Part shown: one piece after another, positions 25,053 through 32,372 of the stretch
Layout: the number at the start of each line of letters is the position of its first letter
Position numbering within the stretch: the first letter of the stretch is position 1
From: an uncultured Marixanthomonas sp.
GTDB lineage: Bacteria; Bacteroidota; Bacteroidia; Flavobacteriales; Flavobacteriaceae
Direction of reading: 5' to 3'
DNA: 32,372 nucleotides
NCBI GenBank assembly: GCA_913057965.1
Contig: CAJXPE010000004.1
Coordinates: forward strand, 1 to 32,372
The notes under the pieces: model-generated
The model's input: only the letters and a program-made list of their open reading frames with translations
Database searches by the model: none
What the model was told of the DNA's origin: nothing
Translations under genes and position numbers: made by a program

Positions 25053-28000
25053 TTATTCTCTAATCAACTGTTTTGTAATAGCTCCATTTTCACTGCTTAT
25101 GCGTACTAAATACGTAGCACTTGCAAGATTGGTGATATCTATTGTTTTTTCAGCACCCATTCCATTCAAGTTGATAGTGCGTATCACACGACCCGTAAGA
25201 TCATAGATAACTGCTTCTTTCAAGTTGTTTTGTAATGGATTACCAATCGTTACTTGATTATTCGCTGGGTTAGGGTATAACTGAACAGTACCTAAAGTAT
25301 CCGTGCCACCAACACCTAATTCCGGGTCAACCGTTAACTCAAAGGTACATGTACCAATGTTTCCGTTGTCATCTTCAGCGGTAAGGGTTACCGTGTACAC
25401 GCCTTCGTTCAATAAGGTTCCTGCAGCTGGTTCTTGTGAAATGATCGTTACATCACTTGTACAGTTATCGATAGCTGAAGCTTCACTTGTTGCAAAATAA
25501 TCAGGAAGTGTATAGGTTCCGCTTGAAGCTGCGATTACATTTTGGTCTGCAGGACAAGTAACTACTGGTGCTAATGTGTCAATTACAGTTACCATTGCGT
25601 AACACGTACTTAAATTTCCATTAATATCATTGACAAATACTTGCACCGTTACTGGTGTTCCTATATCGCTACAATCAAACTCAGTAATATCAACGGCTGT
25701 GGTATCAATTCCGCAGGCATCATCATTGCTGGCAATTACATCTCCTGGCAATAGGGTAGCGGTACCATCTTCTCCTAATTCTAAGGTAAAGTCAGCACAT
25801 ACTAAATCTGGCGCAATGTTATCTTCTACTGTTACCATAGCGGTACAAGTTGCTGTATTTCCGTTTACATCTGTTACAGTAAGTTCAACAGCATTTGCAC
25901 CTACGTTAGAACAATCAAAGGTATCTATATCCAGGTCGTAACTAGCAATGCCACACGCATCGGTAGAACCACCATCTACATCCATACCCGTAATGCTAAC
26001 TGTTCCACTAGCATCCAATTGAACGGTAATATCTTGACAAACTACTTCAGGAGCGGTTATATCTTCCACGGTTACGATTGCTGTACAGGTAGAGACATTT
26101 CCGTTTATATCGGTTACAGTTAAAGTTACATTGTTATCACCTACGGTAGAACAATCAAAGGTGTCTTGATCGATAGCGACTGTATCTATTCCACATACAT
26201 CGGTAGAACCGCCATCTAGATCAGTAGCGGTAATGGAAGCTGAACCAAATTCATCTAACTGAATGGTGATATTCTCACACACAGCAATTGGGGCTTCATT
26301 GTCTTCTACTGTAATGTCAAACGAACATACGCTGGTATTTCCACTAGCATCAGTAGCAGTAAACTCAATAGTGGACACACCCACAGGGAACTGACTACCT
26401 GAAGGCAAGCCTTCGGTTTGTATTACGGTCACTCCAGAACAGTTGTCTGATGCTAACGCATTTGGGAAAGAAACTGTTGCGTAGCAATCACCTGGATCGG
26501 TGTTTGCCATAGTATCCATAGTACATGTAATGGTAGGGGCAATATTATCTTCTACGGTAACAATAGTGGTACACGTACTGCTATTTCCGTTTACATCAGT
26601 TACAGTGAGTGTAACCGTATTATCTCCAACATTTGAACAATCAAAGTCAGTCACATCAATAGTAGTGGTATCTACCCCACAAGCATCAGTAGATCCATTT
26701 TCAACATCCGCAGCTGTAATAGAAGCTTCACCGTTAGCATCAAGCTGTACCGTGAATGGTGCAGCACAATTAGCTACGGGTGCTACGTTATCTTCTACCG
26801 TTACCGTAGTGGTACGTGTGCTTGAATTACCCGAAGTATCGGTTACGGTAAGGGTAACCGTGTTGTCACCAATGTTCGAGCAATCAAAATCAGTAACATC
26901 AATACTGGTTGTATCAATACTACAATTGTCAGTTGAGCCATCATTGATATCGGCTGCTGTAATAGAAGCTTGTCCGTTGGCATCTAACTGTACCGTGAAT
27001 GGTGCTATACAATTTGCAACTGGCGCAATGTTGTCTTCAACCGTTACAGTTGTGGTACAGGTTGAAGTATTTCCAGAAGTGTCTGTTACAGTTAAAGTTA
27101 CTGTATTCTCGCCTAGATTTGAACAATCAAAATCAGTAACATCAATAGAAGTTGAAGCAATTCCGCAGTTATCTGTACTTCCACCATCAACATCTGCTAC
27201 TGTAATAGAAGCTTCTCCATTAGCATCTAAGAATACAGAAAATGAATTTGCTGCAAGCGAAACATTGTCAAGTGCAAATTTTGCAGGTCCAGAAGAAGGG
27301 TCAGGAACTTGTTGCCAAAATGCAATACGTATGGTTTGACCTATATACGCCGATAAGTCTGCAGATAAACTGTCCCATACATTGTCGTTATCTATTACTC
27401 CTGATATGGCAGTTACTTGATTAACTACTTCTAATACGTTGTTACTAAGGTCTCTTATTTGTACCTCGTAAATACGATTTGAACAACCACTACAGAAACT
27501 TTGAAGGTCATAATCAATATTTTCATCCCATGTAAGTAGATTATTATTGCTTGTAATGGTGATATCTTGGTAAATAACAGCTTCATCAGGTCCTGAATTT
27601 GCATCGAATCCATTTGCCGCCATTAATGTTCCATCTGTAGGGGTAGCTTCAGGAAAAATACCTAGTCCTGTATTGCTAGCACCCACATAAAATGGAATAA
27701 AAGGCATAGTAAAATCTTCTACTGTCCAACCAGTAAAATTACCACTTTCAAAACTTCCATTTACAATTATATCATTACCTACACTACAATTAGCAACTGG
27801 CGGGATAGTATCCGTATCAGTTATTGTTACATTAGCGGTATCTGTACATCCATTGCCATCTGTAACGGTAACCGTATATGTGTCTGCACTTAGTCCGGTG
27901 GCAGTTGCATTACTCCCACCAGAAGGTGACCAAGAATAGCTGTATGGTAATGCACCACCACTAACTGAAACGGTTGCAGACCCATCGCTGCTACCCGGGC

Positions 28001-29285
28001 AGGAGGCATTTGTAGATGCTGTAATAGTAGCATTTAAAACTGCAGGTTCAGTTATTATCACATTGGCTGTATCGGTACAACCATTGTCATCAGTAATCGT
28101 TACTGTATAACTTCCTGCCGAAAGTCCCGTCGCAGTAGCGTTGTTTCCTCCAGAGGGTGCCCAAGAATAGCTGTATGGTGATGCTCCGCCACTAACTGAA
28201 ACGGTTGCAGAACCATCAGATCCTCCATTACAAGACACATTAGAATTTACACTTGCAGAAGCAACTAAAGCTGCAGGTTCAGTTATTGTCACATTGGCTG
28301 TATCGGTACAACCATTGTCATCAGTAATTGTTACAGTATAGCTTCCTGCCGAAAGCCCTGTTGCAGTAGCATTGTTTCCACCAGAAGGAGCCCAAGAATA
28401 GGAGTAGGGACTTATTCCTCCGCCAGCTGTAGCAGTAGCAGAACCATTAGAGCCCCCGTTACAAGATACATTGGTCTGTGAACTTATACTTGCATTAATA
28501 GGGGAACTTATTCGAACGGTTTCAGTAGTACTATCATTACCACCGCTATTTGATGCGGTAAGTGTTACAGTATATACTCCAGCAGTTGTATAGCTGTGTA
28601 CAGGGTTTTGGGCAGTTGATGTATTTCCATCTCCAAAATCCCAAGACCAAGCAGTAGGGCTATCAGTTGATTGATCAGTAAAAAATACCGTATGAGGTAT
28701 TGAACAGCCACTTGTTGGAGCTGCACTAAAAGCTGCTGTTGGCGGAGTACTAGCCCCTGCACCACTAATGGTAACCAAGAAGTCTTCTGTTTCTCCATTG
28801 AATCCTGTTTCACAAGGTCCTGATACAGGAGTTGTTCCATTCTTTGCAATTAATCGAACGCGTGTTGTTCCATTGGTTGCCGAATTCGGTATGGTCACTG
28901 TGGTGTTAATACTAGCAAGACCACCAGAGGCAAAAGAAATATTTCCAGAACCCGTAGTAATTGTTTCGCCAGTATCTGTAAAATCACCATCTCCATTTAA
29001 GTCAATGTAAAAGGCATAGGTATAATCTCCAGCATTGCTTCGTTCTACCCCACCTAGTAATTGGTTGGTACCGGTAGGTGTATAAGTTGCTTTCGATCCC
29101 TCTCCGGTACGGTTACTATAAGAACCTGGTCCATTAGAGGTTTCACAATTAGGAAAGTCGAAACACGACTGACCTATAAAAGCACCGCTACCAGCAGAAC
29201 CGGAAGAGGTACAGTATTGAGCGGTTAAGGTTGATAAGGGGGCTAGTATACTAATAAGTAATACTAGAAAAGTAGTTTTCTTCAT
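25053..29285 (-). CDS. Type IX secreted multidomain surface protein (adhesin-like) with GEVED, PKD, SprB and Ig-like/HYR repeats
   Basis: A 1410-residue exported protein, with approximate residue positions as follows. A signal peptide (1-23) precedes a GEVED-type domain (85-173; FYIDLNGDGDF, GETEDF) and a PKD domain (180-260; WSWDFGDGNTS). Three SprB-type repeats follow (265-340, 341-416, 417-490), then a MAM/carbohydrate-binding-like domain (503-678; NGSFESGNFTGW...FALDNVSL). Next come six or seven Cys-containing Ig-like repeats of about 80 residues with FDCSN and TVTVEDN motifs, and two HYR-type modules (914-994, 1238-1320). A T9SS type A sorting domain ends it (1335-1410; LYPNPANNQV). Such proteins act in gliding, adhesion or matrix binding outside the cell. 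Acidic Asp-rich loops suggest Ca2+ binding. The gene stands alone, with a terminator downstream and a TACGTA palindrome upstream. Confidence 0.9.
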   Translation of the reverse strand: MKKTTFLVLLISILAPLSTLTAQYCTSSGSAGSGAFIGQSCFDFPNCETSNGPGSYSNRTGEGSKATYTPTGTNQLLGGVERSNAGDYTYAFYIDLNGDGDFTDTGETITTGSGNISFASGGLASINTTVTIPNSATNGTTRVRLIAKNGTTPVSGPCETGFNGETEDFLVTISGAGASTPPTAAFSAAPTSGCSIPHTVFFTDQSTDSPTAWSWDFGDGNTSTAQNPVHSYTTAGVYTVTLTASNSGGNDSTTETVRISSPINASISSQTNVSCNGGSNGSATATAGGGISPYSYSWAPSGGNNATATGLSAGSYTVTITDDNGCTDTANVTITEPAALVASASVNSNVSCNGGSDGSATVSVSGGASPYSYSWAPSGGNNATATGLSAGSYTVTITDDNGCTDTANVIITEPAVLNATITASTNASCPGSSDGSATVSVSGGALPYSYSWSPSGGSNATATGLSADTYTVTVTDGNGCTDTANVTITDTDTIPPVANCSVGNDIIVNGSFESGNFTGWTVEDFTMPFIPFYVGASNTGLGIFPEATPTDGTLMAANGFDANSGPDEAVIYQDITITSNNNLLTWDENIDYDLQSFCSGCSNRIYEVQIRDLSNNVLEVVNQVTAISGVIDNDNVWDSLSADLSAYIGQTIRIAFWQQVPDPSSGPAKFALDNVSLAANSFSVFLDANGEASITVADVDGGSTDNCGIASTSIDVTDFDCSNLGENTVTLTVTDTSGNTSTCTTTVTVEDNIAPVANCIAPFTVQLDANGQASITAADINDGSTDNCSIDTTSIDVTDFDCSNIGDNTVTLTVTDTSGNSSTRTTTVTVEDNVAPVANCAAPFTVQLDANGEASITAADVENGSTDACGVDTTTIDVTDFDCSNVGDNTVTLTVTDVNGNSSTCTTIVTVEDNIAPTITCTMDTMANTDPGDCYATVSFPNALASDNCSGVTVIQTEGLPSGSQFPVGVSTIEFTATDASGNTSVCSFDITVEDNEAPIAVCENITIQLDEFGSASITATDLDGGSTDVCGIDTVAIDQDTFDCSTVGDNNVTLTVTDINGNVSTCTAIVTVEDITAPEVVCQDITVQLDASGTVSITGMDVDGGSTDACGIASYDLDIDTFDCSNVGANAVELTVTDVNGNTATCTAMVTVEDNIAPDLVCADFTLELGEDGTATLLPGDVIASNDDACGIDTTAVDITEFDCSDIGTPVTVQVFVNDINGNLSTCYAMVTVIDTLAPVVTCPADQNVIAASSGTYTLPDYFATSEASAIDNCTSDVTIISQEPAAGTLLNEGVYTVTLTAEDDNGNIGTCTFELTVDPELGVGGTDTLGTVQLYPNPANNQVTIGNPLQNNLKEAVIYDLTGRVIRTINLNGMGAEKTIDITNLASATYLVRISSENGAITKQLIRE
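25578..27251 (-). repeat. Ig-like/HYR repeat block within the adhesin gene
   Basis: Units of about 80 residues recur with the shared order LDANG...SIT, GSTD-x-CG, FDCS-x-(I/V/L)G, TLTVTD-x-x-GN-x-(S/A)TC and VTVEDN-x-AP. One complete HYR-type module with a different pattern interrupts them (about residues 914-994). The protein repeats are strong, but the DNA has diverged between units, which points to old expansion. Confidence 0.85.
27816..28493 (-). repeat. Three SprB-type repeats within the adhesin gene
   Basis: Three units of about 76 residues with SCNGGSDGSATVSVSGG, PYSYSWAPSGG and GLSAGSYTVTITD-type segments. At the DNA level, 28041-28097 and 28272-28328 are almost identical over 57 bases, 231 bases apart (77 codons), which indicates recent duplication or ongoing gene conversion between the first two units. 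The third unit is more diverged. Confidence 0.85.
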
Positions 29286-29319
29286 AATTTAATTTGAAAT
29301 TAAGATTTGGTTAATGCGG

Positions 29320-29327
29320 TAAAAGTA
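29320..29327 (-). promoter_or_regulatory. Putative -7 element of the adhesin gene
   Basis: On the minus strand this reads TACTTTTA, one mismatch from TAnnTTTG, with 34 bases between it and the start codon. No TTTG is present at the -33 distance. A TACGTA palindrome lies 22 bases upstream instead, so transcription may depend on an activator. Confidence 0.4.
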
Positions 29328-29349: not shown

Positions 29350-29367
29350 ATACGTATAACTACGTAT
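29350..29367. promoter_or_regulatory. TACGTA-N4-TACGTA palindrome upstream of the adhesin gene
   Basis: Two TACGTA hexamers (29351-29356, 29361-29366) are spaced 10 bases apart, one helical turn, inside a 7-base-arm inverted repeat. The site is 65 bases before the adhesin start and about 22 bases upstream of its putative -7 element. An equivalent site is at 32134-32153. It looks like the binding site of a dimeric regulator. Which one is unknown. Confidence 0.5.
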
Positions 29368-29504
29368 TTTTATGATTGATAGACAACTACAGCATCATTA
29401 TCTTGAAGTTAACGGATAATTTTTTTTCTTAAACAGAATATGTTTCCGAGTAAATCCTGCAATTATTTTAATATTTGTTATTCCTGTTGCGGTATATATT
29501 TTAA

Positions 29505-29708
29505 CTAGTATACTTCAAGATATTTAAAATACAAGAGGTTCTAGAAGATGGAAATTTAGTGGCCATTCATTCGCGAATTAAAACTGAAAATAAGCCGAAA
29601 TTGGCTGTTATCCATATTTTTCGATTTGAAGGTGTTAAAATTATAGGGTTATTAGATTTTGGGCAAGCCATACCTGATATTATGGTTAATCTACATGGGA
29701 TGTTTTGA
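29505..29708 (+). pseudogene. NTF2/SnoaL-like protein, 5'-truncated remnant
   Basis: A 67-codon open frame with no start codon runs from just after a TAA (29502-29504) to a TGA at 29706-29708. Its translation has DGNLVAIHSRI, AVIHIFRFEG, IIGLLDFGQAIP and a final HGMF. This resembles the C-terminal half of SnoaL-like/NTF2-fold proteins, which often end LWDVGQPVP...NGMF. Full members are about 120-130 residues, so the N-terminal half is missing, and the bases before 29500 show no matching part in another frame. It fills most of an otherwise gene-free stretch between the adhesin and the Cys-motif protein. The rest of 29286-29851 holds promoter elements and AT-rich DNA only. Confidence 0.65.
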
Positions 29709-29812
29709 AACAATCCTTTCTTTTTATAAAACAATATCCTGAGCTTATAGAATGAAGAAAATATCCTCCAATTTCTTTATCCTTTTTCTTATTTTTTACT
29801 AGCGATAAACCG

Positions 29813-29820
29813 TATTTTTG
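29813..29820 (+). promoter_or_regulatory. -7 promoter element of the Cys/Met-rich operon
   Basis: TATTTTTG fits TAnnTTTG and lies 31 bases before the ATG at 29852. Confidence 0.5.
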
Positions 29821-29851
29821 TAACTGTAAAAAGCATCTTTTTAACAAGGTT

Positions 29852-30226
29852 ATGAAGCAATTGGGCAGTTTACTTTTACTCTCTTTTTTTTGTTTTTCCA
29901 TACTGCGCCCACTTACACCTTATTTAGATTATTACCTTAACTACAACTATATTTCCAATGTACTTTGTATTAATAAAGATGAGCCTGAACTACAGTGTAA
30001 TGGAAAGTGTCATTTAACTCAAGAGCTTTCAAAAGCCAATGAAGCAACCAACCCGAATGATAAAAGCATTCCGCATATTGAATTTGATAAATTTCCTATA
30101 ATTTGTCAATCGTTTACTGGGATTACTTTTTCTACTGCTTTGGAAGAAAAATCTCTATTTCAAGCCTATCAATTTTCAGTAAAAAACTATTTCTTTCAAC
30201 CCGATACGCCCCCGCCACAAGTGTAG
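29852..30226 (+). CDS. Conserved small protein with a C-x9-CNGKC motif, possibly metal binding
   Basis: A 124-residue protein with an N-terminal hydrophobic segment (about 4-18) that is either a membrane anchor or a signal peptide. It continues with RPLTPYLDYYLNYNYISNVLC and then a CNGKCHL segment, giving Cys39, Cys49, Cys53 and His54. I remember this PYxDYxxNxxYIxxxLCxNKxxPxxxCNGKCxL pattern as widespread in Bacteroidota proteins near copper or heavy-metal genes, without an assigned function. The C-terminus is Pro-rich (FFQPDTPPPQV). The next gene encodes a Met/His-rich outer-membrane protein, 74 bases on, which supports a metal role. Binding of copper through the cysteines is inference. Confidence 0.7.
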   Translation: MKQLGSLLLLSFFCFSILRPLTPYLDYYLNYNYISNVLCINKDEPELQCNGKCHLTQELSKANEATNPNDKSIPHIEFDKFPIICQSFTGITFSTALEEKSLFQAYQFSVKNYFFQPDTPPPQV

Positions 30227-30300
30227 TAATCTATCTCACCTGTTTCCGAAGTACTACGGAAACACTACATTTTTTAATTTAATTCATTTAAAAACACACA

Positions 30301-31320
30301 ATGAAAAATATATTATTCCCAATATTGGGAACCCTATTGCTATGCGCTAAACCGGCGGTAGCACAAGACAGCTTATGGACTTCTGCCAGACCTGACGGAC
30401 ACGCTCCCATAAGCGTTATGAGCGATCATTATCACCATAAAGGAGAGTTTATGATTTCCTATCGCTATATGCCCATGTTTATGAATGGCAACCTATCAGG
30501 GAGTGATGCTATTAATAACGAAGCTATCCTCCAAAATTTTATGGCCGCACCCCAGAAGATGCACATGGATATGCATATGTTGGGCGCGATGTATGCCCCC
30601 TCTAATGGCGTAACCCTTATGGCGATGGCTAATTACATTCGTAATCGTATGGATATACGAACCAAAATGGGCGCCGACTTTACCACCGAGTCCAGCGGAT
30701 TTGGTGATGTATCGGTATCGGCTTTAATTAGACTAATGAACCAAAACCGACAGTCTATCCATGCCAATGTAGGTCTTTCTCTTCCTACAGGAAATATAGA
30801 CCAACGCGACGATACCCCAATGATGGCCAACGCTCAACTGGCATACCCTATGCAATTGGGAAGCGGTACGTTCGATCCCTTTGCTGGTGCCACCTATTTA
30901 GGACAAACCAATTTATTTTCTTGGGGGCTGCAAGCTACCTATACGTTTCGAGCAGGAGAAAATAAGGAAGACTATACACTAGGGGATCGTTTTGATGCCG
31001 TAGGTTGGGGCGCTATAAAAGCATCCGATTATCTAAGTTTCTCTACCAGCGTACAGTATTATACCATCGGCAAAATAGAGAGTATGGACGCAGATCTCAA
31101 CCCTATGATGATGCCGTTATTTAATACGGCCAACTCTGGAAGAAATCAAGTAAATTTGGGAATAGGTGGTAACCTGTATATTCCTACTGGGAACTTAAAG
31201 AACCTGCGCTTTGCTGCAGAAGTAAGATTTCCCGTGGCACAAGATGTTACTGGTATTCAAATGGAAAACCAATGGATGGGTACGTTTGGTATTCAGTATA
31301 GTTTTGGAGGACATCACTAA
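30301..31320 (+). CDS. Met/His-rich outer-membrane protein of the transporter family, possibly copper related
   Basis: A 339-residue exported protein with a signal peptide (1-21, ending AVAQ) and beta-barrel-like alternation ending in IQYSFGGHH. The mature N-terminus has PISVMSDHYHHKGEFMISYRYMPMFM, and further Met/His clusters follow (KMHMDMHMLGAMYA, DDTPMMANAQ, NPMMMPLF). Such clusters can bind Cu(I). Proteins of this pattern are annotated as transporters of the phenol meta-pathway type and often sit near copper-handling genes in flavobacteria. It follows the CNGKC protein in what is probably one operon and ends at a strong terminator (31341-31377). The copper role is inferred from composition and context. 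Confidence 0.7.
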   Translation: MKNILFPILGTLLLCAKPAVAQDSLWTSARPDGHAPISVMSDHYHHKGEFMISYRYMPMFMNGNLSGSDAINNEAILQNFMAAPQKMHMDMHMLGAMYAPSNGVTLMAMANYIRNRMDIRTKMGADFTTESSGFGDVSVSALIRLMNQNRQSIHANVGLSLPTGNIDQRDDTPMMANAQLAYPMQLGSGTFDPFAGATYLGQTNLFSWGLQATYTFRAGENKEDYTLGDRFDAVGWGAIKASDYLSFSTSVQYYTIGKIESMDADLNPMMMPLFNTANSGRNQVNLGIGGNLYIPTGNLKNLRFAAEVRFPVAQDVTGIQMENQWMGTFGIQYSFGGHH

Positions 31321-31340
31321 AGCTGTATAGCTTATTTTAT

Positions 31341-31377
31341 AAACCGCCTTGAACATTTCTTAGGGCGGTTTTTTTTT
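31341..31377 (+). terminator. Rho-independent terminator of the Cys/Met-rich operon
   Basis: AAACCGCC (31341-31348) pairs with GGCGGTTT (31364-31371), extended by wobble pairs, and a run of nine T ends the hairpin. It lies 20 bases after the stop codon of the outer-membrane protein gene. Confidence 0.9.
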
Positions 31378-31478
31378 GTAATCATAGTAAAGTGAAAATA
31401 AAATAAAGTATCCTTTATTAATGTGCCAAACGCAACCTTTTGCAGCACACTTCATCTAATGAAAAATACTATAATTGT

Positions 31479-31916
31479 ATGATGAAGAAGCTATATGTTA
31501 TCTTACTACTATCCATACCGCTATTTTCCTGCTCATCTGATTCTGATGAAACTACGACACAGCAAGCAGATTATAGCGGAACGTGGAACTTAGTTCAAAT
31601 GACTGGAAATGTTCCTAATTCTGAAACAACCGGTGCCGATATGGAGTGGCAAGAACGCTATACTTTTAAAGCCGATGGTACATTTTTAAAAACAAGAGAA
31701 CGAGAAGAAATAACTACAATAGCTTCAGGAACGTACGAGTTTAAAGAGTCTGCCAATCAAAATATGATAGAACTTACCTATACAGAAGAAAGTACTATTA
31801 TAGGCTCTTGTTATTCTGACAAAAAAGAAGAGTTGTATACCCATACAAACAGCATCCTTTTTAGTACTTGGGAATATTGTGATGGTCCCGGTTTAAAATA
31901 TATGAAAGTAAACTAG
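31479..31916 (+). CDS. Lipocalin-like small lipoprotein
   Basis: A 145-residue lipoprotein with the signal MMKKLYVILLLSIPLFSC and an acidic-polar Ser/Asp/Thr linker. A lipocalin-like beta barrel follows (YSGTWNLVQMTG near the start, WQERYTFKADGTFLKTRE, GTYEF, LFSTWEYCDGPGLKYMKV). Two mature cysteines, in GSCYSD and EYCDG, may form a disulfide. A TTG at 31440 would lengthen the frame by 13 non-signal residues and is rejected. ATG at 31479 and at 31482 are both possible. It stands alone after a terminator. The ligand is unknown. Confidence 0.75.
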   Translation: MMKKLYVILLLSIPLFSCSSDSDETTTQQADYSGTWNLVQMTGNVPNSETTGADMEWQERYTFKADGTFLKTREREEITTIASGTYEFKESANQNMIELTYTEESTIIGSCYSDKKEELYTHTNSILFSTWEYCDGPGLKYMKVN

Positions 31917-31990
31917 TTTATTTTGTTTTGGTGATTACTCTATATTTTATCTTTATAGATAGCCCTTTTCTTTGTGTTAGAAAAAGTGAC

Positions 31991-32024
31991 AAAAAAAGCC
32001 CGAAGACATCACCCTTCGAGCTTT
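31991..32024 (-). terminator. Rho-independent terminator on the minus strand
   Basis: AAAGCCCGAAG (31995-32005) and CTTCGAGCTTT (32014-32024) form an 11-base stem. On the plus strand one pair is a C-A mismatch and the U run is only three. On the minus strand that pair is a U-G wobble and the stem is followed by seven U. The hairpin therefore terminates leftward transcription better, although no long minus-strand gene precedes it. Confidence 0.65.
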
Positions 32025-32100
32025 ACCTTAAATACTAGTACTACCCAGTAACTTATAAACTGGCATTACAGCGTTTAATCAACAAAATTTATTTAACTCG
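31991..32100 (-). ncRNA. Candidate short transcript between a TACGTA palindrome and a terminator
   Basis: A degenerate -7 element on the minus strand (TAATTTAG, 32112-32105) lies 21 bases downstream of the TACGTA palindrome. A minus-strand terminator closes the unit at about 31991. The transcript would be roughly 110 bases. It contains one tiny frame, 32066 down to 32028 (12 residues, MPVYKLLGSTSI), which stops 4 bases before the hairpin. It could be a small RNA or a small-peptide message. There is no expression evidence. Confidence 0.3.
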
Positions 32101-32133
32101 TTTGCTAAATTAGACAAACAAGCCGCGTTATAC

Positions 32134-32153
32134 AATACGTACAATTACGTATT
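32134..32153. promoter_or_regulatory. TACGTA-N4-TACGTA palindrome, second copy
   Basis: A perfect inverted repeat with 8-base arms AATACGTA and TACGTATT and a 4-base spacer. The two TACGTA hexamers (32136-32141, 32146-32151) are 10 bases apart, as in the copy at 29350-29367. Confidence 0.55.
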
Positions 32154-32331: not shown

Positions 32332-32372
32332 CTGTCTCTTATACACATCTGACGCTGCCGACGACTCCTTAC
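32332..32372 (+). other. Nextera adapter and i5 index, non-genomic
   Basis: Bases 32332-32350 are the reverse complement of the Tn5 mosaic end (CTGTCTCTTATACACATCT). Bases 32351-32364 (GACGCTGCCGACGA) are the rest of the Nextera i5-side adapter. The final eight bases CTCCTTAC are the reverse complement of index GTAAGGAG (S505/N505). Genomic sequence ends at 32331. Confidence 0.98.

Follow-up and report, generated by a model that had tools for sequence, protein, structure and literature searches.

The window, by which we mean the whole 32,372-nucleotide stretch analysed here, is all of contig C4 of a genome of 3.05 Mb in 355 contigs (G000). Two palindromes of the form TACGTA-N4-TACGTA stand in it between genes, and they raise the question of which protein reads them and what they switch on. 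A sequence-only reading had taken them for the operator of an activator and had named LuxR/NarL-type response regulators as one candidate class. According to our analysis, the palindrome very probably serves a single conserved NarL/FixJ-type response regulator as its operator; this protein is encoded on contig C10 of the same genome and would activate a surface adhesin together with small RNAs.

Boxes and predicted promoters in the window

The genome-wide tests were performed as pattern and profile searches. The window contains exactly two matches and no third copy; both are intergenic, have hexamer starts 10 bases apart and share their orientation, with TTT to the right, just as described earlier. 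Dinucleotide shuffles give an expected count of 0.01, and none of 100 shuffles contained two copies; the lone hexamer TACGTA is not enriched in the window (12 against 7.65 expected). The window's genome has four exact boxes against none for a reversed control pattern, and six further genomes of the genus have two to five each, with zero for the control. A scan of the window's genome allowing one mismatch drowned in background (30 hits against 21 and 19 for the control), and variant sites in this genome were admitted only as zero-mismatch matches to TACGTR-N4-YRCGTA. The features of the window are:

29351..29366, no strand: predicted operator box 1, TACGTATAACTACGTA, 16 bp, 7-2-7 inverted heptamers, at about -51 to -36 of the putative adhesin promoter; conserved in G001, G004, G005 and G006
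29320..29327, minus strand: -7 element TACTTTTA, at a 23-base distance from box 1, with a start predicted near 29315
25053..29285, minus strand: T9SS-secreted surface protein (SprB, HYR, PKD, GEVED, Por_Secre_tail), likely target gene; ATG about 30 nt past the predicted start
32136..32151, no strand: predicted operator box 2, TACGTACAATTACGTA, exact match
32105..32112, minus strand: -7 element TAATTTAG, at a 23-base distance from box 2, with a start predicted near 32100
31991..32104, minus strand: candidate small RNA of about 100-110 nt, without ORF, putatively driven by box 2; homologues behind a box in G001, G002, G004 and G005
31995..32024, minus strand: intrinsic terminator of the candidate small RNA, AAAGCTCGAAG...CTTCGGGCTTTTTTT; in three of its base pairs both partners differ within a set of five sequences

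The -7-like elements lie on the minus strand at both sites, each one mismatch from TAnnTTTG, as had been noted. Their distance from the box, given before as 21-22 bases, has to be corrected, since it measures 23 at both sites (box1-N23-TACTTTTA and box2-N23-TAATTTAG). In a wider comparison too, TAnnTTT(G/A) begins at offset 23, in one reading direction, far more often than at other offsets: in 10 of 46 oriented flanks within the genus (0.14 by shuffling), 13 of 67 in genome G350 (0.29) and 9 of 64 in other genera (0.27). Because this distance is found again throughout the genus and also in distant genera, we regard it as a fixed promoter architecture whose box has its centre near -43.5. This position follows from Flavobacterium psychrophilum, where the TAnnTTTG box spans -12 to -5 (PMC9723704), so that the operator would cover -51 to -36. 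A box centred there would fill in for the missing -33 contact and would lie near the position that NarL sites have at napF and yeaR (PMC4549865). The earlier proposal of an activator that substitutes for this contact is supported by the fixed spacing and by the conservation before adhesins in five genomes. At two kinds of site the -7 element is missing from the 23-base position, the one between prfC and the adhesin (contig C15 of the window's genome) and the divergent D site described below.

Upstream of a putative envelope lipoprotein gene of the same genome, at C277:2363-2378, the variant box TACGTGTTTACACGTA shares bases with a perfect TATATTTG element, an arrangement like that of a repressor site. 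The window ends in 41 bases (32332-32372) of Nextera transposase/sequencing adapter (CTGTCTCTTATACACATCTGACGCTGCCGACGA...) that do not belong to the genome; contig C201 also starts with adapter, which there adjoins another variant box.

Conservation in place and the units behind the boxes

Box sites recur at the same places in different species of the genus:

Site A: 66-69 bp before the ATG of a SprB/HYR-type T9SS adhesin
Site A': a second box near site A
Site B: between prfC and a divergent surface-protein operon
Site C: between convergent cox1 and a peroxiredoxin-like gene
Site D: between the members of a divergent pair of hypothetical genes

In four congeners the adhesins behind the A sites share 80-89% identity with the window protein over the best-aligned regions. 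Loss of the motif before orthologous adhesin genes had been named beforehand as an argument against an operator, and these four congeners keep the box. Box 1 likely drives the T9SS adhesin in the window. The box between prfC and the surface-protein operon is kept in six genomes, and a conserved TTTGTAGGAA stretch precedes it.

The earlier reading had also placed the T9SS protein and a short unit near the contig end in one regulon. Both are retained here as predicted outputs, but a general regulon of T9SS cargo is not. What follows most boxes in relatives is a predicted small RNA, a small membrane protein or an unrelated gene, which goes against the suggested enrichment at T9SS-cargo genes. A T9SS-wide regulon was rejected for G350 as well, where by a crude test the first ORF downstream of a non-array box looks exported in only about one case in four.

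The unit at the contig end appears to be driven by box 2, as proposed, and is probably not a protein-coding one. Box 2 faces about 100 nt without an ORF, closing with a strong hairpin and a T run, and the changes on both sides of the terminator helix come from the comparison with four congeners. From these features it is most likely a small RNA of about 100 nt with an intrinsic terminator; no Rfam match was found in the window. The C site of the same genome precedes a predicted 83-nt RNA with a GUGGGGA hairpin loop and a terminator (z=-4.5). On contig C37 a variant box, in the arrangement TACGTGTATGCACGTA-N23-TATATTTG, stands before a further predicted RNA, with GUGGGGA at a hairpin and a strong terminator. 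The reading of these box-driven units as small RNAs is well supported by their predicted structures. Outside the genus, the cox1-side RNA (R2) gave only weak scattered matches of 44 bits and below, which we took as chance or terminator similarity.

The probable regulator gene and its link to the box

Among 397 genomes of the family, a single genome (G350) holds up to 41 boxes, against 0-2 for the control pattern. Nine of its boxes are arrayed in tandem units of ~139 bp that immediately follow a NarL-type response regulator gene; each unit runs from a box through N23 and TAnnTTTAC to a short RNA and its terminator. The one clear ortholog in the window's genome lies at C10:11065-11694 (52% identical to the G350 query, next paralogue 27%), adjoins sucA-sucB and is in an operon with a TPR-HisKA_3-HATPase kinase gene, which overlaps it by 4 bp. 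No HisKA_3 kinase was seen at the regulator locus in most Winogradskyella/Algibacter-type genomes. A retropepsin-like aspartyl protease is a conserved neighbour of the regulator gene (L115:7063-10289; L085:5097-8827), and the G350 locus also has a CHAT-domain (caspase-like) TPR protein.

The protein has the receiver domain (PF00072, Response_reg, E=3e-24) and the GerE/LuxR helix-turn-helix (PF00196, GerE, E=1e-15) of the NarL/FixJ type. The motifs ADDHP and LDI..P are invariant, and the helix-turn-helix residues RTVEKHRSN are conserved save for single conservative swaps. Its closest named relative is from Marixanthomonas spongiae (89%), which makes Marixanthomonas, or a genus near it, the probable origin of the window. 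It stays under the NCBIfam cutoffs both for NarL (113.7 against 250) and for UvrY/SirA/GacA (81.6 against 280). Behind the gene stands TACGTGTATCCACGTA-N23-GACATTTAC, followed by a 37-aa membrane protein. The box in this position is the variant TACGTG-N4-CACGTA within the genus, and the membrane protein is kept in each of the six regulator-bearing genomes searched in the genus, as well as in Marixanthomonas, Aequorivita and Altibacter.

In all 30 family loci that we read directly, box-like sites stand behind the regulator gene. We then counted 46 named GTDB loci with at least 50% identity, requiring a box with at most two mismatches and a -7 element at 22-24 bases. Both are found within 400 bp downstream of the regulator at 43 of the 46 loci, compared with one of 894 background windows from the same loci; the reversed control pattern has no match in the downstream windows. 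These linked loci include Belliella and Brumimicrobium.

The box and the regulator also occur together. At least one box is found in 138 of 178 genomes with the regulator and in 48 of 219 without it (p=2e-29, a value that ignores shared ancestry), and at least five boxes in 41 of 178 against 2 of 219 (p=1e-13, which overstates independence). For the control pattern there is no difference for at least one hit (p=0.91) and a weak one for at least two (p=0.02). Forty genomes with the regulator have no exact box, and those inspected show variants such as TACGTAGAAGTGCGTA. The linkage and the co-occurrence support the response-regulator class once offered as one candidate.

In the preferred reading, the phosphorylated regulator would bind, as a dimer of its C-terminal domain, the inverted heptamers TACGTAN-NN-NTACGTA centred near -43.5, and would recruit RNA polymerase to promoters with a -7 box (TAnnTTT) that lack a -33 box. 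In the window this would switch on the T9SS adhesin and the ~100-nt small RNA. Elsewhere in the genome the predicted outputs are two more small RNAs and the 37-aa membrane protein directly behind the regulator gene, a slot that in most relatives would hold tandem box-sRNA units. Binding, activation, the role of phosphorylation and the action of the small RNAs on mRNAs are all parts that we infer; the motif, its spacing and conservation, the gene linkage, the co-occurrence and the RNA structure are seen directly.

Eighteen genomes with at least three boxes lack the ortholog, and in 12 of them a box stands beside a different NarL-type gene (30-38% identical). This suggests that the box is a NarL-type operator, perhaps shared by two subfamilies, and that more than one regulator may read it. 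In this second group the boxes lie ~30 bp before the start or ~120-140 bp behind the end of the gene. The same neighbourhoods are compatible with another dimeric regulator, either a different NarL-type paralogue or a TetR/CRP-like protein, reading the box while the regulator gene is merely a target locus. The window's genome has several NarL-type paralogues, and the box stands behind and not before the regulator gene, which is not classical autoregulation. Still, we consider such a reader unlikely, as one ortholog group strongly co-occurs and is linked with the box, and the 7-2-7 geometry of the box is NarL-like.

Repression by the regulator at some sites, with the box overlapping or neighbouring the -7 element, is in our view very improbable. 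The C277 site, TACGTGTTTACACGTATATTTG, overlaps a perfect TATATTTG, and the prfC-side and D sites are without the 23-base geometry; against this, -7-like matches arise by chance in AT-rich flanks, and the activator geometry is fixed at both window sites and in most relatives. Chance palindromes or a DNA-level feature such as a terminator, replication or recombination signal, working without a regulator, can practically be dismissed. TACGTA by itself is common in AT-rich DNA, but the counts against controls in the window's genome, the congeners and the family, the in-place conservation across species, the 23-base spacing and the linkage to the regulator at 43 of 46 loci refute such a reading.

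Predicted small RNA arrays and known systems

In most relatives tandem box-sRNA units, as many as nine, come after the regulator gene, read as the source of the activator; these units have GTGCTATTAATTAGTTCTTAGGGAGAATTA and a terminator in common. In the model of this family, R1, 98% of the cells pair over 37 sequences, and 80 are changed on both sides against 21.7 expected, a number reached in none of 500 shuffles. These changes fall almost wholly in the terminator helix, the first hairpin being nearly invariant. R1 matches occur in 111 of the 397 genomes, 104 of which have the regulator. Among the 79 copies for which both the R1 and the regulator position were printed, all lie behind the regulator on the same strand, 67 of them within 200 bp (median 58 bp). 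R1 is absent from the window's genus, which has other box-driven RNAs. An Rfam search of six loci, including the nine-unit array, matched only a tRNA. CsrA (PF02599) is absent in 20 of 20 genomes tested and was found in three control genomes including E. coli; titration of CsrA/RsmA was ruled out, and for this reason the GG loops are not read as CsrA sponges.

At the operator level the system would work like NarL, which binds 16-bp 7-2-7 sites such as TACCCCTAAAGGGGTA, with sites near -44 at napF and yeaR (PMC4549865). The exact boxes fit this form, with TAC at the outer ends. Shared with the E. coli NarL/NarP operators are the 16-bp inverted heptamers, the TAC...GTA ends, a GerE-domain response regulator (here a predicted dimer) and a position near -44, here predicted to be activating (PMC4549865). 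In contrast, the heptamer core is GTA here and CCCC/YYM there, the promoters are of the Bacteroidota -7 TAnnTTTG type, and the regulator reaches only 114 bits on the NarL model.

At the output level it would rather work like LuxO-Qrr or GacA-Rsm. In Vibrio, several redundant Qrr sRNAs are under one response regulator, LuxO, a sigma-54 activator, with one copy beside the regulator gene. The multiple redundant sRNAs, the single response regulator and the adjoining copy are alike, whereas here the protein is NarL-type with a -7 promoter and the sRNA sequences are unrelated. GacA acts with a palindromic UAS and controls small RNAs (PMC2375449). GacS/GacA-RsmX/Y/Z resembles our case in its NarL-type regulator, palindromic upstream site and redundant small RNAs with GG-containing hairpin loops; it differs in that CsrA/RsmA is missing from the 20 genomes tested here, the predicted sRNA genes follow one another in tandem immediately after the regulator gene, and the regulator has 82 bits on the UvrY/SirA/GacA model. 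Rfp18 of F. psychrophilum affects secreted protease genes, has an adhesin as predicted target and at least three stem-loops (PMC9723704). Compared by description only, it is alike as a flavobacterial sRNA with an adhesin link, and unlike in its three or more stem-loops and in that the paper mentions neither a regulator nor a TACGTA box.

Tentatively, and with less than even confidence, the system could be a Bacteroidota counterpart of Gac/Rsm or LuxO/Qrr, in which a single two-component regulator controls surface adhesion by way of sRNAs amplified in tandem, which carry GGG hairpin loops and share a conserved GCUAUUAAU segment. As this branch of the phylum has no CsrA, the sRNAs might act by base pairing or by titrating another RNA-binding protein, and the array length, one to nine units, might tune the dose.

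In the open-access literature, to which the search was confined, we found no description of the regulator, the box or the sRNA family, and a Riemerella two-component paper (PMC5399024) mentions no LuxR-type protein, binding site or TPR kinase. Here a regulator gene, its putative operator, a promoter architecture and outputs are joined from sequence alone, in a large environmental family with few known regulons and small RNAs. Regulator and box accompany each other through dozens of genera and, it seems, even outside the family. The tandem arrays offer a concrete element, simple to delete, for studying surface-adhesin control in gliding, polymer-degrading bacteria.

The nine G350 units (G350:C1:1238639-1240139) are mostly near-identical, suggesting recent amplification or homogenisation. 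About 30 further G350 boxes precede unrelated, mostly hypothetical genes, with SEFIR/TIR-like and ADP-ribosylglycohydrolase-like proteins nearby; their promoter and leader stretches are almost the same, which looks like the copying of a promoter cassette to various places in the genome.
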